Shown here: positions 3,598-21,649 of the stretch, in pieces | Numbering within the stretch: position 1 is the first letter of the stretch | How the letters are laid out: each line of letters opens with the position of its first letter | Source of the DNA: a virus | Direction: 5' to 3' (one strand) | Length of the DNA stretch: 27,086 bases | Virus record (IMG/VR): IMGVR_UViG_3300049448_000048 | Location: 1 to 27,086 of that record | The notes under the pieces: generated by a model | The model's input: only the letters and a program-made list of their open reading frames with translations | Databases searched by the model: none | What the model was told of the DNA's origin: nothing | Translations under genes and position numbers: made by a program

Positions 3598-4548
3598 CTA
3601 AACGAATAGCGGTATCGTAAAGTAGCAATCTACCCGAGTAGCGACCCCGGAAATCCCCTGGCAGTTCACGGATCCATCAGCCGCAAATTCCAGAGCCGCA
3701 GACTCCTGATTGGGCCCGGCTCCCACTATTCGAAGAACATCCGCCACGCAAGGGACACGGTGGAACGTAGGCACACGATAGGCAGCCGGGAAGGATCCTG
3801 CAGCCCATATATTCGTGCCGTCCGTAGTCGTGCCGCAAACCAGCTGCTTGAATGCCACCTGGAGATCGTTGTCACCGTTCAGCCGGTACCGGGCAAAGCC
3901 ACCTATGCTCCAGCCATTCGTCATAGCTGGCATGCTGCCTGGCGTAACGTCAGGCGGCTGCACCAGAAACGTCCATGCTGAGCCATTCCACAGCATCAGC
4001 GCATCGGTGTCCGTCTGGTAGTACAGGGTCGGTCGGACCAGCCATGTCGGCATGTTCGCTGCCGGTCCAGACTGCATGGTCTTGCCGGTATCAAAGCGCT
4101 CATCTACCAAGCTAGTCAGTCCGCCCGCAGAGGTAGAGGTCCAGTGCGAGATCGGGAGATCCCAGATACCAGTGGTGGTCTGGACTAGTGCTGGTAGTAC
4201 CGGGCTGCCCGAAGGTGTGCCGGTGATGATGTTGGGCTGGAGGAACGCCGTAGCGGTGCCGGCTGTCCTGAGAAGCCGAAGCGTCAGCCTGTCGATCCGG
4301 TTGGAGCCTGAGGCAGCCGGGACAGCCGTATTGACCGGGGCATCGCATGACCACAGCTTGCCCTTGACGATGCAGGAGCCAGCGGCCATGACGGCATTGC
4401 GTCCGACGCCATCAAGGCTCGGGGCAAGGCTGGTGGTGGGATTCATGATAACGCCATCGCCGTCGCCAACTCCGCCGATCAGAGACTCCCAGTCAGCGTC
4501 ACTAGTCAGCTGAAGGAATGGGCTGGGCCTTGCGTTCGTTACGGTCAT
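3598..4548 (-). CDS. Tail fibre-like / minor tail protein
   Basis: This is a 316-aa protein rich in Thr, Ser, Gly, Ala and short beta-type segments, typical of phage minor tail or receptor-binding proteins. The segment NRIDRLTLRLLRTAGTA (about residues 83-99) resembles the D-R-x-V-L-R-Y strand found in baseplate and fibre proteins of actinophages. Residues 160-200 include the YYQTDTDALMLWNGSAW pattern often seen in fibre shafts. The C-terminal third is a probable beta-sandwich. It starts 5 nt after the giant tail-tip gene with AGGGGAC as a close ribosome-binding site, so it should be made with the tail tip and probably attaches to it. Receptor binding is inferred from position and composition. 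Confidence 0.7.
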   Translation of the reverse strand: MTVTNARPSPFLQLTSDADWESLIGGVGDGDGVIMNPTTSLAPSLDGVGRNAVMAAGSCIVKGKLWSCDAPVNTAVPAASGSNRIDRLTLRLLRTAGTATAFLQPNIITGTPSGSPVLPALVQTTTGIWDLPISHWTSTSAGGLTSLVDERFDTGKTMQSGPAANMPTWLVRPTLYYQTDTDALMLWNGSAWTFLVQPPDVTPGSMPAMTNGWSIGGFARYRLNGDNDLQVAFKQLVCGTTTDGTNIWAAGSFPAAYRVPTFHRVPCVADVLRIVGAGPNQESAALEFAADGSVNCQGISGVATRVDCYFTIPLFV

Positions 4549-4553
4549 GTCCC

Positions 4554-7500
4554 CTATCCTATCTGAGCATTCAAACGGCGCTCTAGTCGCTGAACACGCT
4601 TGAGCAGTTGCTGGACGAATGACGGATCAATGGCGCCTGGGTCTGACGAATACCCAACCGTCGGAACAACCGACATTGCCGGTTGCTGGGTAGCGTCAAT
4701 ATTCAGCGTCACACCGGTGACGATATCCGAATAGATGTCACCAGGCCTGGGCTCAACCGAGACAATGTCGCCTAGGAAATAGTCGCGACCGAAAGTCAGC
4801 AGTGGGATATCGGTAGCGGTCATCTGCAGAGCCGGGCTGGGCTGGCCCTGAGTCAGCGCATCGGTAGCTGCCTGCTGCGCCTGAACCGGGTCGGTCTGCC
4901 CGGTCTGGTCAGAATACACCTCAATACGAGACCAGTCAGTCTCAGGATTAGGACTGGCAGCCGTAGCAAAGAACAGTGGCGCGGCAGCAGCCTGAGTAAG
5001 CACGGTGGTCACCGTAGCGTCGGCCAGGGATAGCGACACCGCTGTCAGGTTGCCGATGTCCGGGCTGAAGTAGGCTGTGCCGGTTCGGTCGGTCGGGACG
5101 TAGGTCTGGAACAACAGACGCTGGCCCTGGCGAATGATCCTGACGCCCATCGGTCCGCCCGTGCCGATCAGCGATCTGATGATGTCCATCAGGTTGAGGT
5201 CAACACCCTGGGCGAACTTGACATCGTAGGTCACAGCCGTACCGGCACCCTGCGGGATATCTATGTCCAGCAGGTTAACCTTGCGAGCCACAACGGCGCT
5301 CGGTCCAACGTTGTCAGTCACAATAGCCTTGATGACGTTCTCAAGCTGGCCGGTGTACGTCTTGATACCGGCAGCCGTCTGGCCGCCCCAAGCCTTGGTC
5401 GGGTCCGGGAATGCGATCCTATTGGCCACTAGGGAGAGATAGTCGGCCCCGCCCAGGGTTATTAGTGGGCCGGGAGCCGTAACTGGCCCAGACGTCGTGC
5501 CCGTCCCAGCTTGCTGGTTCGTCGTGAACGAGTAACCGGGGATCTCGACCTTGCCACCGAACTTGAACAGACCCTGCCAGTTCACCTCAATAGTACACAG
5601 ACCGTTCTGGGTGATGGCTCCAGTCACCGGGTCCACGGTAATGAACTTCTTGACCTGCTGCCAGAAGCTGTCGTCGAACGGAATAGCCATAGCCCACGAG
5701 CCGACAAAGTTGTAGAACAGCTGCGCCGTTAGCGACGTGAAGTTTATCGGCGCAATCGGATTCAGGTTCTCGTCCATGAGGACGGCCGTCACCGGATCAG
5801 ACGATCCACCGGGCGGAGGGAATACGGCTGCCACAGCGAACTGGACACTGATGGCAAAGAACCCAGTTGCCGTATGGCCATTCGCATCGGTAACCGTCAC
5901 GCTGAATCCGACTACTCCGGCAGTCCCGAGCGATGGCGTACCAGACAGCAGCCCCGTGCTGTCAAGCGTCAATCCCGACGTTGCGAAAGTAGAGCTAAAT
6001 GAGTACGGCGGAACGCCACCGTGCGCATTCCCGGCGAGGCTCTGTGAGTACGGAACATTCTCACGCGCATCCGGGAGCGTACCGCTGCCCATGGATAGAG
6101 CTGCATCAATTATCAGCGTGATGGTCTGGACAGCTGTGTTGCCGACCGAGTCCGTGGCCAGGAAGGCCAGCGGGTAAGCTCCAGCCGTTCCCGATGATGG
6201 CGTCCCGTGAAGCAGCCCGGTAGTGTCTAGCGTCAGGCCGGTTGGCACAGCTACCGATCCGGTCGTCAACCCAACGGTGACAGCAGGTATGCCACCCGTG
6301 GTGCCAACCAGCTGCGAGAACGCTGATCCCTCAGCACCGTCAGGCAGAGTCGTCGTGGTAAAGGCCAACGGCGTACCGGCACCAGGTGCACAGTAGAATG
6401 TGGCTAGGGCAGCCGACCAAGATGTCATCGTTCCCGAGGCATACGTCAGAACATCAGAGGCTGTCTGGGTCGTGGCACCGCTAGTTCCGCGCACGCCCTG
6501 GAACACGGCAGTCAGGCTGTTGACAACCCCATCGGCCGAATAGCCGGAACCGGGTGCCCAAGAGGACGTTCCGAATGCCGGGCTGGACAATGCCGAGAAG
6601 AAGCCTCGCGCCAATCCACCACTGTACTGCTGCGCTGCCGAGTTGGTCACGTTCAGGGTAGCCGGAGAGGCAATGGCAGCTATGGCCCCAGCGCCACCAA
6701 CCTGATCTACGGCTGCCGCATACCCGGCAGGAATTGTCTCCTCGTATAGCTTGCCCTTGACCGTAGCGCTCGGGTTGGAGTAGCTAAAGATGGCAAGGTG
6801 TGTAGCATCCCCATATAGCCCGACCGGGGCATTCAGTCGAGCCCATATCTGGGAACGCGAGTTAGATGTCGCCGTACCGGCCTTACCTTCCGATACCATC
6901 TGCCAGTTTCCATCGTTGGCCCATATAACTTGGTTGCAGTCATTGGACATGATCTCGACGAATAGACTAGAGTTCAGCAGGCTCGGATAGCCACCAGACG
7001 GTGGCGTCACTGCATTGAAGAACATGCTTATCGAACCAGCTGCCATGAGAGCGTTCCACAGCTGCTGTAGCGGACCGATCATATCGCTACCAGCCGTCAG
7101 CGTGTTCTGGTTCGGCGAACCCTTGTTGCCGTTGTACCACATAACGGCGTCACGCTTAGTGGCAGTCAGAATTGACGATATGATGTAGTTGATGTACGTC
7201 GGGAATAGCGACGGCGTATAAGAGGACGTTCCTTCCGCCCGGCCAATCTCGCCGTATCCAAATGCCATCCCATTGGTGTTGCATATTGAGATCAGTGAAG
7301 ATATCGGCGTCAGGTTAGTCGTTCCGCCGGAGGTCAGATTCTCCCAAGTGGAGCCGTAGAAGTCGATCATCCCGATGTCGGGAATACAGCCAAGTCCGAT
7401 GATGGCCGTCAGCCAAGTACATGCTGCGCTGGAGGATCCCCCGGTAGTCATGCTATGACCGGCCGCATCATAGGCGACCTTGACGTGGTGCCCTAGCGAG

Positions 7501-10319
7501 TCCGTGACAGCCTGGGCCAGCGGGCAATAGTGCGCGAAGAAGGAGGCATAGGTTGACTGGGTAAACGTCGTGGTGCCGCTACCGACAAGCCAACTCGCAT
7601 TCTGGGGCTCCTGAATGGGGATGACCACAACGCCGTTCGCACCGTTCGGGTGATGGTTTGCCCACCACTGAACCGATGCCACAAAGTTAGCATCCTCGGC
7701 CGGGCTGAACGTCGGGTTAGGCTGGTAACACAGATAGATGACAGCGCCACCGTTGACGATGGCCGTCATGTCCTGCCCGGTACCGTCTACGAATGCCTGT
7801 GGATAAACGCCTGTCCCTAGCGATCCGCCTGGGCCATTGTTGGCGTTCTGGTAGTACACCTTCTGCGCAGTATATCCGAGCCGGTACTGAGTACCAAGGA
7901 TGCCGTCAAAGAAGTCAGCTGCCTGCTGATGCGTAGCCTGCGCGGTGGTCGGCAGGTTCTCGTTACATATGGCACCGACAAGGCTGCTGGTGGTACTGCT
8001 GTTGGCTCCGATGAAGTTCTGTGACTGCTGCCTCTCGGTGAACGCACCCGACGTTCCAGGTCCGGTAGGAATGGTTCCCTCGGGCGAGCCATAGGCGACA
8101 ACGTTGCCGTTGGATATCACACAAACCGGCGGAGTCGTACCGACATGCGGAATGAACGACATGTTCTCCGGACGAGAAGCAATAAATCCTAGGGAACCAG
8201 TTGGGTCGCCATTGGTCCAGTGAATGCCATCAGACGACAGCGCCAGACCTGAGCCGCTCCCGGTGTCCTGAGTACAGCAGTAGACATACCCTGTATCAGA
8301 TATACCGCACGGCCCAGGCTGGCCACTGCCGACACCCACAGCGATCGGTCCAGTCTTTGTCGCACCTGCTCCGACCGTTCCGGTGTGGGCTCCAACTATC
8401 TTGAACAGCCCTGCCTGTGTGGTATACCAGATCTCACCTGTGCGAGTCGGATGGGCGGCAATAGTCCCGCAAAGACCATCGTTGTTGGTGACAGCGAATA
8501 CCTGCACCCAGCTACCCGAAATACCATAGTTGTTCGAGCGCCAGATGCCAGAAGCCTGATCAAACACATAGACGTACTGACTAGCCTTGACGTGAGCAAA
8601 GTTGACGAGGTTACCCGATCCGCCCGTGCAGAATGCATTGCTTACGATGGACCAGGTTGTGCCGTTGTGATACCAAAGGCCGGTGTTAGGCGAGGCAGCC
8701 AGGAGCGTCTTGGCACTGCTCGCGTTATTCAGCGCGCAAAGACCAACAGCCGTCTTGTGACCCTCCGAAACGCTACTACCGGCATCAACAGCCGTCGCCA
8801 GGTTCATGGCGGTCCATACCGGGTTCAGAGCCTTCGGAGCCTTGTAGACGTCACCGGCAATGGTCGTGTACTTCTGGTTGGCCGCAGTCGAGCTTGTGTA
8901 GATGATCGTCTCGTCTTCGCTGATGGCCACGGCATATGCCTCAGCGGAGCCAATCGGGTTAACTGCATTCAGAGACGAGGCATTCTCACTGCCGACCGCT
9001 AGGTCAATCAGGGTACCGAAGTCGGAGGACGTAAACATCAATCCCCAGGAGGCAGCCGTAATCGCATGCCCGAGGAACTGAGGCATCACGTTGGAGCACA
9101 GCTGCCATACCGAGCTAGCGTTCGGCCAGCGATACAAACCCTGCGAAGCCGAGCAGTATAGATCCCCGAAGTGAGTCGGGTCAGGATCCCACCTGACATG
9201 TGGGCAGATCATACCAGCGCCACCCAGCGCTTCACCGACTCCGCTGTTCCACCAGGTTCGCGTTCCGCCGACGGTCTGGATCACGCCGACATTCATCTGC
9301 GAGTTGAGGTGCGTCATCTGAAGCGTGCTGCTTATTGCTCCAGTCGTAACGTTCCTCACGAACTTGACGACGGCCCGGTGCGTGTCGTCGCCGGCCAGCT
9401 TTACCGGCTTGGCGCAGGCAATGGCTATCCAGTGGTTACCAGAGCCGTCGTTGATGACGTCAACAGTCGACCACCACGACGTGGGGTCAAGAGCGCCGGT
9501 GTTTCCAATCTGGGTCCAGCTGTTCGTGTTGCTTGTCGCTGCCACCCACAGGCCATCGAAGCCCAGGGCCACGTACACCCATCCGTCTGCGACTACAACG
9601 TCCTCTACCGTACTACCGGCCGGAAGCCCAGAGCACTGAATGAAGTTCGGAGCCGCTGGCGTAGCGACATGCGCATTCGCACACTTCCACAAACCACCGA
9701 AGTTGGTAGTGCCGCCACGGTCTGCGAATCCGGCATATATGGTAGTCGGAACAGCAGGGTCCTGGCAAATACCTCTGGCATAGTAGTTCGAGCCGGGTGC
9801 TGCTCCGGCCATGGTGCAGATGATTGGCCATGTGCTCCCGTGATCCCCCGACCGCATGATGCCCTGCTTCATGCTAGCGGTAAACAGGAAGCTACTGTCT
9901 TCGGCGAAGTACCTACGGCCACTACGCTGCCAGTTATTCTGTACGCCACCCGGCACGTGGTAGGTGTTGCCGGAGTACTGCGGCACACGACTGAGCATGG
10001 ACCAGGTGTCCATACGATCGGTGGACTTCATGATGCCACCGTTGCTGCCGTTGTCGCCTACGGCAATCAGAACGGTGTTGCCGGCTCCAGCCGGGTCAAA
10101 CTTCGGGGCAAAGATAGCTGCTGCCTGGTGCCAGGCATTCTGCGGTCCTTGGCCACGGTTACGGATGACAGATTGCTGGCCGTACAGATGGGTGGTTCCG
10201 TCGCGCTGAGTTCGGTACGTTCCCTGTGTGTCGGATCCCATGTAGAGGTAGCCATCACCAGAGAAGTAAATCTCCTGGAGAAGGCCACCACCGTCGAACT
10301 GTATCGGCGCAAATGTCAT
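4554..10319 (-). CDS. Giant tail-tip protein: BNR propeller, glycosidase-like barrel, two He_PIG domains, Gp37-like tail domain
   Basis: I choose the ATG at 10319 (1921 aa): it overlaps the Dit stop as ATGA and follows CGGAGGT; another ATG eight codons upstream is less likely. Residues about 1-770 look like a BNR/sialidase-type beta-propeller, with Asp-box motifs near 99-106 (STDRMDTW), 157-164 (SGDHGSTW) and 695-701 (SSDGIHW). Residues about 787-1100 look like a clan GH-A (GH26/GH5-like) barrel: PIQEPQNAS gives Glu904 as acid/base and FGYGEIGR gives Glu1024 as nucleophile candidate. Residues 1100-1315 are unassigned beta-rich sequence. Two He_PIG Ig-like domains follow (about 1318-1402 and 1410-1497). 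Residues 1510-1895 resemble the siphovirus ReqiPepy6 Gp37-like tail protein, and a short coiled coil ends the chain. The C-terminal part probably anchors to the tail tip while the N-terminal modules bind or cut host surface glycans; this arrangement is inferred. Confidence 0.85.
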   Translation of the reverse strand: MTFAPIQFDGGGLLQEIYFSGDGYLYMGSDTQGTYRTQRDGTTHLYGQQSVIRNRGQGPQNAWHQAAAIFAPKFDPAGAGNTVLIAVGDNGSNGGIMKSTDRMDTWSMLSRVPQYSGNTYHVPGGVQNNWQRSGRRYFAEDSSFLFTASMKQGIMRSGDHGSTWPIICTMAGAAPGSNYYARGICQDPAVPTTIYAGFADRGGTTNFGGLWKCANAHVATPAAPNFIQCSGLPAGSTVEDVVVADGWVYVALGFDGLWVAATSNTNSWTQIGNTGALDPTSWWSTVDVINDGSGNHWIAIACAKPVKLAGDDTHRAVVKFVRNVTTGAISSTLQMTHLNSQMNVGVIQTVGGTRTWWNSGVGEALGGAGMICPHVRWDPDPTHFGDLYCSASQGLYRWPNASSVWQLCSNVMPQFLGHAITAASWGLMFTSSDFGTLIDLAVGSENASSLNAVNPIGSAEAYAVAISEDETIIYTSSTAANQKYTTIAGDVYKAPKALNPVWTAMNLATAVDAGSSVSEGHKTAVGLCALNNASSAKTLLAASPNTGLWYHNGTTWSIVSNAFCTGGSGNLVNFAHVKASQYVYVFDQASGIWRSNNYGISGSWVQVFAVTNNDGLCGTIAAHPTRTGEIWYTTQAGLFKIVGAHTGTVGAGATKTGPIAVGVGSGQPGPCGISDTGYVYCCTQDTGSGSGLALSSDGIHWTNGDPTGSLGFIASRPENMSFIPHVGTTPPVCVISNGNVVAYGSPEGTIPTGPGTSGAFTERQQSQNFIGANSSTTSSLVGAICNENLPTTAQATHQQAADFFDGILGTQYRLGYTAQKVYYQNANNGPGGSLGTGVYPQAFVDGTGQDMTAIVNGGAVIYLCYQPNPTFSPAEDANFVASVQWWANHHPNGANGVVVIPIQEPQNASWLVGSGTTTFTQSTYASFFAHYCPLAQAVTDSLGHHVKVAYDAAGHSMTTGGSSSAACTWLTAIIGLGCIPDIGMIDFYGSTWENLTSGGTTNLTPISSLISICNTNGMAFGYGEIGRAEGTSSYTPSLFPTYINYIISSILTATKRDAVMWYNGNKGSPNQNTLTAGSDMIGPLQQLWNALMAAGSISMFFNAVTPPSGGYPSLLNSSLFVEIMSNDCNQVIWANDGNWQMVSEGKAGTATSNSRSQIWARLNAPVGLYGDATHLAIFSYSNPSATVKGKLYEETIPAGYAAAVDQVGGAGAIAAIASPATLNVTNSAAQQYSGGLARGFFSALSSPAFGTSSWAPGSGYSADGVVNSLTAVFQGVRGTSGATTQTASDVLTYASGTMTSWSAALATFYCAPGAGTPLAFTTTTLPDGAEGSAFSQLVGTTGGIPAVTVGLTTGSVAVPTGLTLDTTGLLHGTPSSGTAGAYPLAFLATDSVGNTAVQTITLIIDAALSMGSGTLPDARENVPYSQSLAGNAHGGVPPYSFSSTFATSGLTLDSTGLLSGTPSLGTAGVVGFSVTVTDANGHTATGFFAISVQFAVAAVFPPPGGSSDPVTAVLMDENLNPIAPINFTSLTAQLFYNFVGSWAMAIPFDDSFWQQVKKFITVDPVTGAITQNGLCTIEVNWQGLFKFGGKVEIPGYSFTTNQQAGTGTTSGPVTAPGPLITLGGADYLSLVANRIAFPDPTKAWGGQTAAGIKTYTGQLENVIKAIVTDNVGPSAVVARKVNLLDIDIPQGAGTAVTYDVKFAQGVDLNLMDIIRSLIGTGGPMGVRIIRQGQRLLFQTYVPTDRTGTAYFSPDIGNLTAVSLSLADATVTTVLTQAAAAPLFFATAASPNPETDWSRIEVYSDQTGQTDPVQAQQAATDALTQGQPSPALQMTATDIPLLTFGRDYFLGDIVSVEPRPGDIYSDIVTGVTLNIDATQQPAMSVVPTVGYSSDPGAIDPSFVQQLLKRVQRLERRLNAQIG

Positions 10320-11224
10320 GCCCGCAGCCACCTCCGAGTCCATGTCAGCTGAATGGACGAGTCAGCACCGGCGCCACCCATGGTCAGGAAGATCTCATTC
10401 ATCCCGCGCGCCAGTGACCATAGGTCTCGTGGGGTTGACTGCACGACATCGGACCATACACTCACACCGGCGCCAATGTCAACAGCGCTCTGGCTGCCAG
10501 GCTGGGTGTTAACCTGGATCTGCTGGAGGTCGGCCATCGCATTGGTGAGGCTGAACTGCCGGCCGGTCGTCTGGTTCTGGATCGTCGGAAGGCCAGGACC
10601 GGTAATCAGCCATTCCGGATAGGCTTCAGCGCCACCCTCGTTGTCGATGATGTCGGCACCGAACACCGTGCTGACCGTCGTGGATATCGGCAGTATAGGA
10701 AGGATGCCTGCAGCTCCGGAACTGGCTAGCTGATAGTTCGTCACGTTCGGGTTAAGGTCATACCAGAACGGGTCGTCGGCCTGTAGCGTCAGCGTGTAGG
10801 TAGACCAGTCAACGCCGCTATCCGTCGCAGCATCCTGTCCGCCGACGCAGTACACATTGCGGAAGCGCGACGTACCATCCTGGCGTTGTACGACCAACTG
10901 TCCTGGCGTAGGAACATTGTTACGGACGTTGTAGAAGGAATATGCAAACGAGTCAAGCAGCGCCATGTAGGCGTTGATGTCGCCCTGGGACTCGAAGAAC
11001 AACCCCAGACCTATGCTGCCAACCTGTGGCGTATACAGCTGCGGGAGCGCGCCACCGTTGAGCAACGGAATAGATGAGAACGACACCGGGATCCCGGACA
11101 CGCCAACGATACCGGTGCATATGTAGCCATTGGACAGCAAAAGATCGGTGAGAGGCCAGGTGTTGCCATCCGGGTCTATATAGCTGATCTGCGGCGGAGG
11201 AATCGAATCGAATGGAGTAGTCAC
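10316..11224 (-). CDS. Distal tail protein (Dit-like)
   Basis: The 302-aa protein follows the tape measure gene and precedes the tail-tip gene, the usual place for Dit. The N-terminal part (about 1-150) has the beta-rich Dit pattern, including PLTDLLLSNGYICTGIVGV and a Y-L-DPFWYD block near residue 150. The C-terminal part has the galectin-like domain pattern with INNxG-type (IIDNEGG) and PEW segments, ending in LTWTRRWLRA, a very common end of actinophage Dit proteins. Dit forms a hexameric ring that closes the tail tube and holds the tip proteins. The GTG at 11224 shares its first base with the tape measure stop (TAGTG), preceded by GGAGG. No insertion of a carbohydrate-binding module is visible. 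Confidence 0.85.
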   Translation of the reverse strand: MTTPFDSIPPPQISYIDPDGNTWPLTDLLLSNGYICTGIVGVSGIPVSFSSIPLLNGGALPQLYTPQVGSIGLGLFFESQGDINAYMALLDSFAYSFYNVRNNVPTPGQLVVQRQDGTSRFRNVYCVGGQDAATDSGVDWSTYTLTLQADDPFWYDLNPNVTNYQLASSGAAGILPILPISTTVSTVFGADIIDNEGGAEAYPEWLITGPGLPTIQNQTTGRQFSLTNAMADLQQIQVNTQPGSQSAVDIGAGVSVWSDVVQSTPRDLWSLARGMNEIFLTMGGAGADSSIQLTWTRRWLRA

Positions 11225-13914
11225 TATTGCCTCCGACCCATCCGGGCCACCCTACCTCGGCCGATGTCCATCTGCTGGAATGCCCTGCGCGTCATCGCCT
11301 CATGCGACTGCGCCGTTACGCCGTCAAAGTGTGCAACGTAAGTTGTTCCGCCATCCCCACCCTTGACTGCAGCCTTGCTAATAGCGTCCCACTGTTTCGG
11401 AGTCAGAACAGGCTCAGGCTGAGTTGTCGTGTTGATCCCCCAGTCGCCTGGCATCAGCCATCCACCTTCATCATAGCCATGGCCCGATCCGATGCCCATC
11501 CCGCCGGACATCAGCGACGGCCCGTACACATGCCTCGCGTAGTTCAGCGCGGCGGCGATGTTCGCGAGTGGGTCATAGATGTTGCTCGACGTCCCCGGCC
11601 AATGGTACGCCTGGAACGTAGACATAATGGTCTGCATAAGACCACGGGACGGGTCGCCGTGGGCGGCGTTGGAGTCGGTCAGGTTGATCGCGTTCGGGTT
11701 CCCGCCGGACTCGGTCTGCATCTGGAACAGAACACGACCGAGCAACATCGGGGAAAGACCCTCCATGGCCAGAGCCTTCTTCACCAGCCCGGCCCACCGC
11801 TGCACGCCTGATCCCACGTTAGCCACGCGCCGAGCCGCAGTCTGCGCTGCGGCCACAGCCTTATGCGCAGTAAACTTAATGCCAGCCTCAAGATGGTGCA
11901 TCAAGTTCGCGCCAAGGTCATAGAACACAGAACCGGGGTGCGGGGGCGACATATGCAGGAATTTCATGATTGCGCCCGGAATACTACCGATGAAGGTCTT
12001 CAGCCAGCTGAGAACCGTTCCGCCTACGGCCTTCAGTCCGTCTAGGAACTCGGTGAGCGCAGCATGGGCGAAAGCATACAATGAATGCCCAAAACCGGAC
12101 AGGGCGCCAAGGGCCATGCCGGGCAGCTTCCTGAACCATCCGATGACGCCAATTATACCATTATGTACCTGGTTAATTGTATTGCGCCATATCGCATCCC
12201 AAGCAGAGGAAATGTCATGCCGCACATTATCGAATATGGAAGAAGTGTTGTGCCGCCACTTATCAAACTCGACGACAACATCATGGTTACCTTGCTTCGT
12301 GGTGCCCAAGGTGTGGTTCCAGAGCGAGTCCCATATACGAGAGACACCGTGCCGAACATCATCAGCGATCTGGACAATACGGTCGCCAAGGCCAGACCAG
12401 GAGTTCAGCCAGGTCTGCTGCTGCGCCTTGTCCGGTGGCCCGAAAGACTGCCACCAGGTCTGCTGTCCATGGCCCGGCCTCTTCTGATTAACTGCATCGA
12501 TAATGCCTGCGGCCAGCAATGTCCCGATGCTGAATCCGAGCAACCTGGGATGGTCTGCTAGCGCTCCGGCAAGCTGCAGCCCGACCTTGATTGTCCCGGT
12601 CTTAGAGAGCAGTAGCAGAGCACCAGCAGCCTCGGTTAGTGGCGCCTGCCATCCCTTCGGAAGACTAGCAATTAGCGCGAAGAACTGAGAAAGTGCTTTC
12701 AGTTCCATTTGCCCGACAGTCGATGCCCCGGAAAATATACCGGGAAGAATCTTTCCAAGACTGGACAGGAGACTATTAACGACCGGACCTTCGGTGTGCA
12801 AGTAATGCAAGAATCCCTGCACATCCGCGCGAGCCTTCGCCGATTTCGACCATGTGTCGAAGGCTTTACCCCACGCCTTCAGGTGGTCTCCGAAGGTGCC
12901 AAAGTTTACGTTATTTGCAGACAGGTCGGTTCCAAGATGGAATATCCCTGCTCCGATGTTCACCAGGAAACTACCGATATCGCGAAGCTGGCTAGCCGAG
13001 AACTTCCCGAAAGACTCGGCAAGCTGTCGCAGCTGCTCGGCCACTATCGTGTTCGAGAAGTATCTCTGCAGAGACTGTCCCCAGTCCCTGAACACAGCCG
13101 CAATCGGGGTGACAATTGGCTTTATGAATTGCATTGCATCCCTGGCAGCGTGCAACCAGGGGACTAGTGCTCCAGCAATAACAGGCGTAAGACTCTTCTT
13201 GACATTGTCCCAGGAGGTACTTAGATCGCCAACCTGCTTGGACAGCTGGATCTGAGCCGGGCTCATGCCCTTGTAGGCAAGCGCAATAGCCTTCTGCTCC
13301 GCTGCATAAGCAGTAGAATGCTTGACACCGGCTGCAATAGCTATGTTGTATCTCTCCTGGGCCGTCTTCACGGCCGCAGCAGCAGTACCGGCCTGGGTGA
13401 GAGCCGACTTGGCCAGTACTCCGAATAGCCCAGCTCCAATTACAGCAGCACCAAAGGAGACGGCAATAGCGCCTACGCCCGAGGCAATTCCAGCCGCCAG
13501 CGGAATAAGAGAGGGAGACAGCGCCAATGCAGTACCCATGGCCGACGGCTGAATGAAGCTCGCCTGGGAGAACTTGTTGAATTTCGACGCCAGCTGAGCT
13601 CCGAAACTCTTGTCGACATTGACCTTGAGTTCTACCGGACGAGCCTCCTGCTCCTTACGCATCTCATCTATATGCTCGCTGGCTCCGGCGGTCTCCGCAT
13701 TGACATTGACCTCTAGCGCACTAGCTTTCAGGTCTGCCTTGATCTTCTCTATGTAGATTCGGACGCTCTCCTGGATGCCACGCCCCAGCTTGGAACCGTA
13801 CTCCCGGCCTATGTTGTCAGCTTCCGGGAATAGCTGCCTTCGCAGTTCCTCGTTGAACTTACTGGCGTCCGGAACAACACCGACGGCAACTTCTCCAACG
13901 AAAATTTCAGCCAC
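11224..13914 (-). CDS. Tape measure protein with C-terminal lytic transglycosylase domain
   Basis: At 896 aa this is the second longest gene and follows the chaperone pair, as tape measures do. Residues 1-115 are helical and charged. Residues about 130-172 form hydrophobic Ala/Gly-rich segments (IPLAAGIASGVGAIAVSFGA). A long helical region follows with repeated W-D-x-(I/L)-W motifs around 535-590. Residues about 715-795 form a lysozyme-fold SLT domain: FQMQTESGGNPNAI gives Glu735 as the expected catalytic residue, then RGLMQTIMSTFQAY and NIAAALNYA. It sets tail length, by the usual 0.15 nm per residue about 130 nm, and should cut peptidoglycan locally during DNA entry. The GTG at 13914 overlaps the chaperone stop by 8 nt and is preceded by AGGGAAG. 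Confidence 0.92.
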   Translation of the reverse strand: MAEIFVGEVAVGVVPDASKFNEELRRQLFPEADNIGREYGSKLGRGIQESVRIYIEKIKADLKASALEVNVNAETAGASEHIDEMRKEQEARPVELKVNVDKSFGAQLASKFNKFSQASFIQPSAMGTALALSPSLIPLAAGIASGVGAIAVSFGAAVIGAGLFGVLAKSALTQAGTAAAAVKTAQERYNIAIAAGVKHSTAYAAEQKAIALAYKGMSPAQIQLSKQVGDLSTSWDNVKKSLTPVIAGALVPWLHAARDAMQFIKPIVTPIAAVFRDWGQSLQRYFSNTIVAEQLRQLAESFGKFSASQLRDIGSFLVNIGAGIFHLGTDLSANNVNFGTFGDHLKAWGKAFDTWSKSAKARADVQGFLHYLHTEGPVVNSLLSSLGKILPGIFSGASTVGQMELKALSQFFALIASLPKGWQAPLTEAAGALLLLSKTGTIKVGLQLAGALADHPRLLGFSIGTLLAAGIIDAVNQKRPGHGQQTWWQSFGPPDKAQQQTWLNSWSGLGDRIVQIADDVRHGVSRIWDSLWNHTLGTTKQGNHDVVVEFDKWRHNTSSIFDNVRHDISSAWDAIWRNTINQVHNGIIGVIGWFRKLPGMALGALSGFGHSLYAFAHAALTEFLDGLKAVGGTVLSWLKTFIGSIPGAIMKFLHMSPPHPGSVFYDLGANLMHHLEAGIKFTAHKAVAAAQTAARRVANVGSGVQRWAGLVKKALAMEGLSPMLLGRVLFQMQTESGGNPNAINLTDSNAAHGDPSRGLMQTIMSTFQAYHWPGTSSNIYDPLANIAAALNYARHVYGPSLMSGGMGIGSGHGYDEGGWLMPGDWGINTTTQPEPVLTPKQWDAISKAAVKGGDGGTTYVAHFDGVTAQSHEAMTRRAFQQMDIGRGRVARMGRRQ

Positions 13915-19329: not shown

Positions 19330-19674
19330 TCACACAGCCTCTAGCTCCAGCCGCCATGTATTGGCGGTTCTCAGTTTCCCGGTCTTTGTCACATCAAGCC
19401 GACACCAGGACAATCCATATGTGGCATTGTCCAATGCCGGAATTGCAACCGTGGCCTTTCCAGGGTTGCCAACCTGGTCTGGGTCTGCCGTCACCGTATA
19501 CGTCTTGGCAGACGGATCCGTGTCCGGTAGGTACCTGTTCTTCTTCCTGGTGAATAGCAGCGTACATCCGGTCAGGCTGAATGGCGCATTGCCGTTGTTG
19601 GGGTCAGTGACCATGAACGTCAACGTCACATCGTTGCTCTGGGGGATTGTCAGGAGTGTAGCGTCGTCAGCCAT
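19330..19674 (-). CDS. Small beta-sandwich virion protein, BppU N-terminal-like
   Basis: The 114-aa protein is all-beta by pattern: TLLTIPQSNDVTLTFMVTD, then FSLTGCTLLFTRKK, KTYTVTADPDQ, GKATVAIPALDNA and WRLELEAV. The order resembles the N-terminal domain of phage baseplate upper proteins (BppU) and related Ig-like phage domains, in which a G-D-T-x-x-L-x-F opening is followed by L-x-G-x-x-(I/L)-x-F. Here it lies among putative decoration genes rather than tail genes, so it may attach to the repeat protein or the capsid. It overlaps the repeat protein gene by 8 nt, which suggests the two are made together. The family match is weak and the role is inferred. Confidence 0.65.
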   Translation of the reverse strand: MADDATLLTIPQSNDVTLTFMVTDPNNGNAPFSLTGCTLLFTRKKNRYLPDTDPSAKTYTVTADPDQVGNPGKATVAIPALDNATYGLSWCRLDVTKTGKLRTANTWRLELEAV

Positions 19675-21649
19675 CTATTGCCTCCGCTGCGAGTTTGTCA
19701 GCATATCCGATTGCCGATATTACGTCCCTAGATATGCTAGCTGATAGGGTATTAACCGTAACGGCAGACGCAATTGTATCCTGGCCGACAGTTGCACCAA
19801 GGCTATCGATCCTCACTATCGTAGCGCTGAGGTCCACTACCAAGATGCCGGCGAATGCAGCTGCCACGCCGACAATAGACAAGGATCCAGATGCAAGCGC
19901 ATTGGCCCTAGCCGATACTGATCCTACGACGATCAGGGTCGCAATAGCAGTCGCCCGGACACCAGCCTGAGCAGAGCCGGCAATAGCCAAGTTGCCGGAT
20001 GGAGCTATAGCCACCCTGGCCGTGGCAGTAGCGGCAATGGAAAAGGTTCCCGTTGCAGATACAGGAACCTGCGCCACAACGGATCCGACAATGGACAAAG
20101 ATCCTAGGGCAGCAGGACCTGGACCTATCGCCGTACCATTGATCGAGACAGACCCAGAGGCTATCGCCTTGGCTGCAGCAGCAGCCGTTCCTGTCAAGGC
20201 AAAGGCTCCGGTTGCCGTAACTGGTGCTGCGGCCGTAGCCGTTCCTGCCAAGGACAGGCTGCCAGAGGCTATCACAGCAGCCTTAGCCGTAGCCGTACCA
20301 GCCAAAGCTATGGAACCAGCAGCATTGTTCCCTGGGCCAATAGCCGTTCCGTTGATGACGATAGAACCAGATGCAGCAGCGACAGCCTTAGCCGTAGCCG
20401 TACCGGAAATAACAAGCGATCCGGAGACAGCCGATATCTGCCAAGCTGCCGTACCAGTCAGGATCAGCGAACCAGATGCCGAGGACGCTGCTCCAGATGT
20501 AGCCGTTCCAACGAGACTCAGCGAACCGGAGGCAACTACCTTGGCTACGGCTGAAGATGTGCCGGTGAGACTCAACGAGCCAGAGACGACCGTAACGACG
20601 TCTCCTGGCGGACCTGTGCCGATCAGCGTGATAGAGCCAGTAGCAGCAGCCGTAGTCGCAGCGGTGGCCGTACCTGTGAAGCTGATGCTCCCGGATGCCG
20701 TCACGGCACCTGCTGCAGAGGCTGTTCCAGTCAGAATCAGCGACCCAGGCACAGCCGGCACCAGAGCACCCGGTGGGCCAGTTCCTGTGATACTTATGCT
20801 GCCTGCGACGACAGCCGGTATCTGCCAGGCAGCTGTTCCCGATATGTCTAGGTTGCCCGAAGCTGATGCAGCAACAGCAGATGCTGCCGGGGCAGGTGGG
20901 GCCATCTGTGCGCGCCGCCACCGTTTCCGCCATCTCAAACCACCCGGCTGTTCTGTGCTGTCTGCTCCAGCTGCCACGCCAGAACGAACGGCAACAGCCA
21001 CGGTCTGCCCGTCGATCGCGTTATTCGTCGGGGACGCCGTGACCGTCGTCTGCCGGGTGCCCGTGGCCGCATTAGAGGCGAGTGCCTGCCAGGCAGCCAT
21101 CATCCCGGCGTCGGTGGACCCCGCCAGCGCCGACGCGACCTGCGCCGCGATCGTCATCCCCGCTGGGGTGCTGTACGTGTCGCTCGTGTTCGCCGTGGTC
21201 GGGTCGCCGAGGCCGAACCCTATGAGCAGCAGGTCCACCGACGCCGAAGGGGTGATTCCGGGCGACGTAATCGTGGACAGCGCCGACACGCCGCCGTTGT
21301 CGGTGACGACCGCCACGTCTTCCGGTGTCGTGCCGTCTGCGCCCTGCACCGCCACGCACACCGCGGCGAACCGCCCCGACGTGCCGGTCACCGTGGGATT
21401 AGCATCCCCGGCTTGCATGACCCGTCGGTACACGGCCATGCAGCTCGATGTGGACGCACCCGAAGCGAACGACGCCGCTACCGTCGTCCATCCAGAAGGA
21501 GCAGCCCCCATCGACCCGGCTGATGCCCGGTCCTCAGCGAATATGTAACAAACATCACCAGCAGCAAACCCAGCTGGCAATGGCATCGAGAATGACGCCT
21601 CGGTTGCTGCCGAAGCGTAGGTGGACGAACTTCGAACGGTGGCTGGCAC
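19667..21649 (-). CDS. Repetitive virion protein with fibre-type N-terminal domain
   Basis: The 660-aa protein has three parts. Residues about 1-228 form a beta-rich domain (EASFSMPLPAGFAAGDVCYI, PSGWTTVAASF, MAVYRRVMQAGDANP, FAAVCVAVQGADG) known from many phage and bacterial fibre-like proteins. A basic junction, LRWRKRWRRAQM, follows. From about residue 258 to 605 there are about 19 tandem repeats of 16-20 residues with consensus ASGSLSLTGTATAxA, which suggests a beta-solenoid or repetitive shaft. The last 50 residues differ (DLSATIVRIDSLGATVGQDT...). There is no signal peptide or enzyme motif. Lying between head genes, it may be a capsid fibre or decoration protein; this is inference. The DNA of the first part looks richer in CG than the repeat part, as if two pieces had been joined. 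Confidence 0.8.
   Translation of the reverse strand: MPATVRSSSTYASAATEASFSMPLPAGFAAGDVCYIFAEDRASAGSMGAAPSGWTTVAASFASGASTSSCMAVYRRVMQAGDANPTVTGTSGRFAAVCVAVQGADGTTPEDVAVVTDNGGVSALSTITSPGITPSASVDLLLIGFGLGDPTTANTSDTYSTPAGMTIAAQVASALAGSTDAGMMAAWQALASNAATGTRQTTVTASPTNNAIDGQTVAVAVRSGVAAGADSTEQPGGLRWRKRWRRAQMAPPAPAASAVAASASGNLDISGTAAWQIPAVVAGSISITGTGPPGALVPAVPGSLILTGTASAAGAVTASGSISFTGTATAATTAAATGSITLIGTGPPGDVVTVVSGSLSLTGTSSAVAKVVASGSLSLVGTATSGAASSASGSLILTGTAAWQISAVSGSLVISGTATAKAVAAASGSIVINGTAIGPGNNAAGSIALAGTATAKAAVIASGSLSLAGTATAAAPVTATGAFALTGTAAAAAKAIASGSVSINGTAIGPGPAALGSLSIVGSVVAQVPVSATGTFSIAATATARVAIAPSGNLAIAGSAQAGVRATAIATLIVVGSVSARANALASGSLSIVGVAAAFAGILVVDLSATIVRIDSLGATVGQDTIASAVTVNTLSASISRDVISAIGYADKLAAEAIDG
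19836..20870 (-). repeat. Tandem coding repeats, about 19 units of 48-60 nt
   Basis: The units code for the pattern GS(L/I)x(L/I)xGTA followed by an Ala/Val-rich stretch. Some units contain GPPG or IGPG turns in place of ATA. Two units with AWQI(P/S)A and two with NGTAIGPG look like local duplications. Units near the left end diverge (GSVSAR, GVAAAF), so the array is old at one end and more uniform in the middle. Confidence 0.85.

Follow-up and report, generated by a model that had tools for sequence, protein, structure and literature searches.

A probable actinophage tail hub with large N-terminal modules in an uncultured soil virus, and extensions at the same end of the hub in its relatives

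Phage tail hubs are commonly viewed as proteins with a fixed N-terminal structural core and variable C-terminal parts. Among annotated phages, Gp37-like hubs stand alone, as in Thestral gp21 and Saftant gp20 (403-405 aa), or come first in a longer protein, as in Percival gp17 and Icarian gp19 (688-708 aa). In siphoviruses the usual position of the Tal gene is adjacent to the gene of the distal tail protein (Dit), and in Tals the structural domain is N-terminal and the extensions come after it; in lambda gpJ and T5 pb3 the hub segment starts later in the chain (PMC7291167). The window analysed here is a stretch of 27,086 nucleotides, a 27-kb virus fragment (IMG/VR record IMGVR_UViG_3300049448_000048), and encodes a protein of 1921 aa in which the hub domain is found at residues 1515-1889, which is not the layout of a Tal with a C-terminal extension. 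On balance, this protein is likely to be an actinophage-type tail hub whose front modules are directed outward and bind glycans, possibly also cutting them, and whose N-terminus is a site of module exchange.

Gene position, domain layout and a full-length relative

The hub gene runs on the minus strand from an ATG at 10319 to a stop codon at 4554; a preliminary description of this DNA had its coordinates right, to which the strand is now added. The gene, its parts and its neighbours are as follows, with L002 denoting a second virus contig and L032 a prophage of Actinomadura rudentiformis.

4554..10319, minus strand: P0001, tail hub protein of 1921 aa carrying N-terminal modules; open reading frame and translation, full-length relative in L002
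8055..10319, minus strand: residues 1-755, apparent Asp-box, GH74-like tandem beta-propeller; hhalign to GH74, NCBIfam Asp-box match, blade-like motifs
10230..10232, minus strand: Asp30, in the column of the TDIGG Asp, the first of the catalytic Asp pair in GH74; by hhalign and in three modes of MAFFT
6990..8054, minus strand: residues 756-1110, probable (beta/alpha)8 barrel, GH-A-like; AF2 secondary structure (pLDDT 33), structural comparison
7608..7610, minus strand: Glu904 (IQEPQ), end of predicted strand 4; low-confidence model, conserved in L002
7248..7250, minus strand: Glu1024 (GYGEIGR), in predicted strand 7; low-confidence model, conserved in L002
6375..6989, minus strand: residues 1111-1315, fast-evolving module; 49% identity to L002
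5820..6374, minus strand: residues 1316-1500, spacer of two He_PIG (Ig-like) domains; Pfam PF05345, E 3.4e-14
4554..5819, minus strand: residues 1501-1921, Gp37-like tail hub domain; PF14594, E 1.4e-26; phrog_538 minor tail protein, E 2.5e-39
10316..11224, minus strand: distal tail (Dit) protein, directly upstream of the hub gene; phrog_106, phrog_33
11224..13914, minus strand: tape measure protein with an SLT (transglycosylase) domain close to its C-terminus; phrog_167; Pfam SLT, E 2e-9
3598..4548, minus strand: 316-aa protein directly downstream of the hub gene; phrog_17342, 36% identity over 220 aa to L032

Read along the minus strand, the genes encode the portal, a VG15-like protein, the scaffold, the capsid, the tail tube, the tape measure, Dit, the 1921-aa hub, the 316-aa protein and an Rv2525c-type lysin. 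The hub gene comes straight after those of the tape measure (13914-11224) and Dit (11224-10316), which is the position of a siphovirus Tal or baseplate hub. Its start at 10319 overlaps the stop codon of Dit and has a GGAGG upstream; the reading frame is open up to 10343, and a 'VAAG' pre-start frame is also present in relatives. Elsewhere in the window, an Rpf-type transglycosylase-like domain on the plus strand (1-291) is truncated by the end of the record, and a 660-aa protein rich in short tandem repeats (GSLSLxGTA) is encoded among the head genes (19667-21649, minus strand) and had no match in Pfam or PHROG. The virus is probably a siphovirus-like soil phage with an actinobacterium as its host, the latter because of the lysin type and of relatives in an Actinomadura prophage and in Streptomyces and Microbacterium phages.

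Both the He_PIG pair and the Gp37 domain at the C-terminus, described earlier from the sequence, score above the Pfam cut-offs. Sipho_Gp37 (PF14594) matches residues 1515-1889 with 93.8 bits against a cut-off of 26.2, covering model positions 5-369 of 370, and He_PIG (PF05345) is found in two stretches ahead of it with 53.5 bits against a cut-off of 24. A second virus contig, IMG/VR 3300012209_000022 (L002), encodes the same full-length protein with its domains in the same order. Residues 1-755 are 83% identical between the two, residues 756-1110 69%, residues 1111-1315 49%, the Ig-like part ~50-57% and the hub (1501-1921) 80%, and Asp30, Glu904 and Glu1024 are all conserved. With the same gene present in a second contig, chance is ruled out and a chimeric assembly is unlikely; the retention of order and residues indicates that the order and the parts are real and under selection. 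The earlier view of the protein as a tail-tip hub with a C-terminal structural anchor and glycan-enzyme-like modules ahead of it is supported.

Both its length and its order set the protein apart from most known hubs, as might be expected had an assembly or sequencing artefact joined a glycosidase gene to the hub gene; the chance of this is negligible, however, since it is refuted by L002, a different contig in which the gene recurs at full length with 69-83% identity, and since the start overlaps the Dit stop codon and other N-terminal fusions occur in the clade of the closest relatives. Rather improbable, too, is a polyprotein whose N-terminal modules are released by cleavage after translation and work as an enzyme of their own, soluble or loosely bound, leaving the hub to assemble alone. 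Close relatives do assemble with a stand-alone hub of ~430 aa, and Ig-like spacers lie between the two halves of the protein, but the fusion is kept in both contigs and inspection of the 1921-aa gene revealed no start codon with a ribosome-binding site ahead of the hub domain, so that the hub would be produced as a fusion only.

L002 was the only relative of the N-terminal modules found in GenBank phages, in IMG/VR (by single sequence, alignment and DNA motif) and in ~300 actinobacterial genomes, where the lone weak match turned out to be an unrelated cyclase-type protein. Likewise, a sequence search of the PDB gave no match for the whole protein or for the profiles of the two modules. Residues 1111-1315 are without a Pfam or PHROG match; a domain suspected by eye to be common to this segment, the extensions of relatives and the 660-aa protein of the window was unsupported by profile comparison.

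The apparent propeller and the probable barrel

Residues 1-755 look like a tandem Asp-box propeller. The Asp-box motifs previously noticed near the N-terminus are present (SGDHGSTW at 157), as is SSDGIHW at 695, and the NCBIfam Asp-box glycosylhydrolase model gives a weak match at 575-639 (E 4e-5). Furthermore, ~13 blade-like motifs at steps of 41-130 residues fit a double propeller, GH74 enzymes having two seven-bladed propellers in tandem; the motif had been picked by eye after the sequence had been seen. Single-sequence searches of the PDB and Pfam with the propeller gave almost no matches. In hhalign, a two-row profile of the propeller was set against 23 GH74 sequences from actinobacterial genomes, one of which was confirmed as GH74 against the PDB. 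The alignment begins at residue 2 of both and extends over residues 2-252 (212 columns, E 4.5e-5, 69% probability), with a score of 47.7; the best of 60 column shuffles reached 25.8, the reversed profile 16.5, five other Asp-box proteins 22-37 and single GH74 sequences 30-48. At the level of sequence profiles, the likeness is specific to the start of GH74, beyond that of a general Asp-box propeller. Asp30 (MGSDTQGTYR) falls in the column of the first catalytic Asp (YARTDIGGAYR) in hhalign and in three MAFFT alignments. For the second catalytic Asp (GDIGGF) the alignments are unstable, and Asp433 (SSDFGT) is a candidate chosen by eye. That both positions are important is indicated by Ala variants in the PDB, with Ala at the first in 5fkq and at the second in 5fkt. 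The second half of the propeller had no profile match.

Residues 756-1110 are a probable (beta/alpha)8 barrel of GH-A-like type. In an AlphaFold model of residues 750-1315 (pLDDT 33, pTM 0.30), strands and helices alternate as in a TIM barrel over residues 770-1110; the first strand is unmodelled, and strands at model residues 69-75, 111-116, 149-154, 196-200, 233-239, 270-277 and 311-314 are each followed by a helix. Glu904 (IQEPQ) and Glu1024 (GYGEIGR) are located as had been claimed and correspond to model residue 155, just past the fourth strand, and to model residue 275, inside the seventh. This predicted secondary structure weakly favours the proposed TIM barrel with Glu on strands 4 and 7, and a match to a GH-A family was not obtained: no significant match came from searches of Pfam, PHROGs and NCBIfam or from hhalign comparisons, with a query alignment of two sequences only, to GH5, GH26 and GH39, none of which emerged as a parent of the barrel. 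Foldseek searches, which had been suggested as a check for both parts, returned mostly propellers among the top matches for the propeller model (pLDDT 29) and many TIM barrels for the barrel model, none of them significant and all taken as weak hints only. Both models were built from two-row alignments and cannot be used to assign a fold. A structural comparison of the barrel model gave mostly GH5, GH29 and GH113 TIM-barrel glycosidases at Z 5-7, values that possibly reflect just a common arrangement and are read as a weak hint only.

In clan GH-A the nucleophile is a Glu at the end of strand 7, and the acid/base Glu ends strand 4; in most families the latter is preceded by Asn, and Gln takes this place before Glu904. 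This replacement, the alignment of a single member of the GH74 catalytic Asp pair and the divergence of the second propeller half past detection are in line with front modules that are lectin-like binders only, that is, degenerate glycosidases holding the host glycan without cutting it. We regard this as a substantial possibility that falls short of being probable; against it, Asp30, Glu904 and Glu1024 are retained in L002 though the barrel is down to 69% identity.

In the preferred reading, an outward-reaching actinophage-type hub, the C-terminal Gp37-like domain would sit under the Dit ring and close the tail tube, and the ~1,500 front residues, comprising the GH74-like tandem propeller, the GH-A-like barrel, the variable module and the two Ig-like spacers, would extend outward. 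With the hub as a trimer, the tail tip would bear the front modules in triplicate, in contact with the glycans of the host surface, which they would bind and possibly cut, so that the tip could reach the cell wall. The virion location and the glycan binding are what we infer for the front modules, and catalysis and substrate are guesses: the most likely ligand would be a beta-linked polysaccharide, maybe cut, and because of the GH74 likeness a beta-1,4-glucan-type backbone is a putative substrate.

Extensions before the hub in uncultured relatives

A scan of IMG/VR with a hub alignment yielded 25 loci with 42-47% identity, most of them with 11-35 residues before the hub. In the closest uncultured-virus clade (soil viruses, L193-L217), 7 of ~16 distinct hub genes have N-terminal extensions of 247-1500 aa. 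The extensions measure 247 aa in L214 and L217, 398 in L194, 485 in L205, 570 in L198 and L199, 650 in L193 and 1500 in the window, and they begin at the end of the Dit gene and are true fusions. In a maximum-likelihood phylogeny built from the hub domain, the distribution of extensions requires five changes, at least four of them forced by well-supported branches, with gain and loss not distinguished. Two groupings have full support: L193 (650 aa) and its sister L216 (27), and L214 (247) together with L210 (28).

L193 and L198 have extensions that show kinship, that of L194 is phrog_553-like, and profile comparison detected no kinship among those of L194, L205, L214 and the window, save a short repeat common to L193 and L205. 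The clade contains about five unrelated kinds of extension. The stand-alone hubs of L195, L206 and L216 start with ~28 residues (e.g. SVNGLSATGSLGTGW) that resemble one Ser/Ala/Gly-rich repeat unit, and Ser/Ala/Gly-rich repeats stand just before the hub in extended relatives; these short starts are possibly a remnant or a recombination seed. The closest named relative, the Actinomadura rudentiformis prophage (L032, 36% identity), encodes at 9289-12442 a stand-alone hub of 409 aa, then a homologue of the 316-aa protein and then a separate 730-aa beta-helix (pectate-lyase-like) spike.

The hub-last order is rare, not unique, and the hub N-terminus is a recurrent plug-in site, of which the window protein is the largest known case. 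Unrelated modules at the same front end in relatives suggest that this is a swappable site for host-targeting parts, where whole modules may be gained, lost or exchanged. Its presence in several uncultured relatives makes the order more interesting as such a site and less as a one-off type of tail tip. The fuller proposal, in which the clade's hub N-terminus is a modular docking site for host-targeting domains and its cargo here is a two-enzyme depolymerase (GH74-like propeller and GH-A-like barrel) in three copies, is tentative and on the doubtful side. The clade has its variable parts repeatedly at the end opposite to the one commonly assumed, and its hub tolerates large N-terminal cargo; close relatives with and without cargo form natural pairs, so that the effect of the cargo on host choice can be tested.

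Comparison with described tail hubs

The order had been considered uncommon, which holds against the cultured phages examined and ~700 actinobacterial genomes but not in the sense of a single case, given the extensions of 247-650 aa in the nearest uncultured relatives. PF14594 was matched 39 times in the 299 genomes surveyed from one actinobacterial order and ~16 times among 396 from the phylum, and neither these matches nor the annotated cultured phages examined included a hub-last protein. The longest open frame with PF14594 in these genomes has 786 aa (L043), a length due to reading upstream of the likely start; like the apparent N-terminal extensions of L011 and L231, it is no fusion but stems from out-of-frame sequence or from read-through ahead of the probable start codon. 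A hub-last layout was not described in the literature searched, and as far as the searches reach this would be the first report of a GH74-like module in a tail hub. With GH74 xyloglucanases (PDB 5jwz, 2cn3, 5fkq) the window propeller shares the start, the GGG motif, the column of the first catalytic Asp and the Asp-box turns, but only its first third matches by profile, and it is fused to a phage hub.

The Gp37-like hubs of the Streptomyces and Microbacterium phages named above belong to the same Pfam family and have the same gene position, whereas they are 403-708 aa long, have the hub alone or first and lack N-terminal modules. Tal or baseplate hubs with C-terminal extensions (SPP1 gp21, TP901-1, 80alpha Tal) resemble the window protein in that the hub domain follows tape measure and Dit and carries long modules that bind a receptor or cut the cell wall (PMC7291167); their hub domain is N-terminal with the extension behind it, in contrast to the extension before the hub in the window. 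In lambda gpJ and T5 pb3 a hub-like segment also lies away from the N-terminus (gpJ 327-499 of 1132; pb3 ~529-725 of 949; PMC7291167), yet the preceding part is far shorter (~330-530 residues) and is not reported as glycosidase-like, and gpJ has modules behind the hub too. Finally, evolved Dit and evolved Tal proteins with carbohydrate-binding modules likewise have glycan-binding modules plugged into core proteins of the tail tip (PMC7291167), but there the insertions are in Dit loops or inside the Tal structural domain, as opposed to 1,500 residues placed before the hub.
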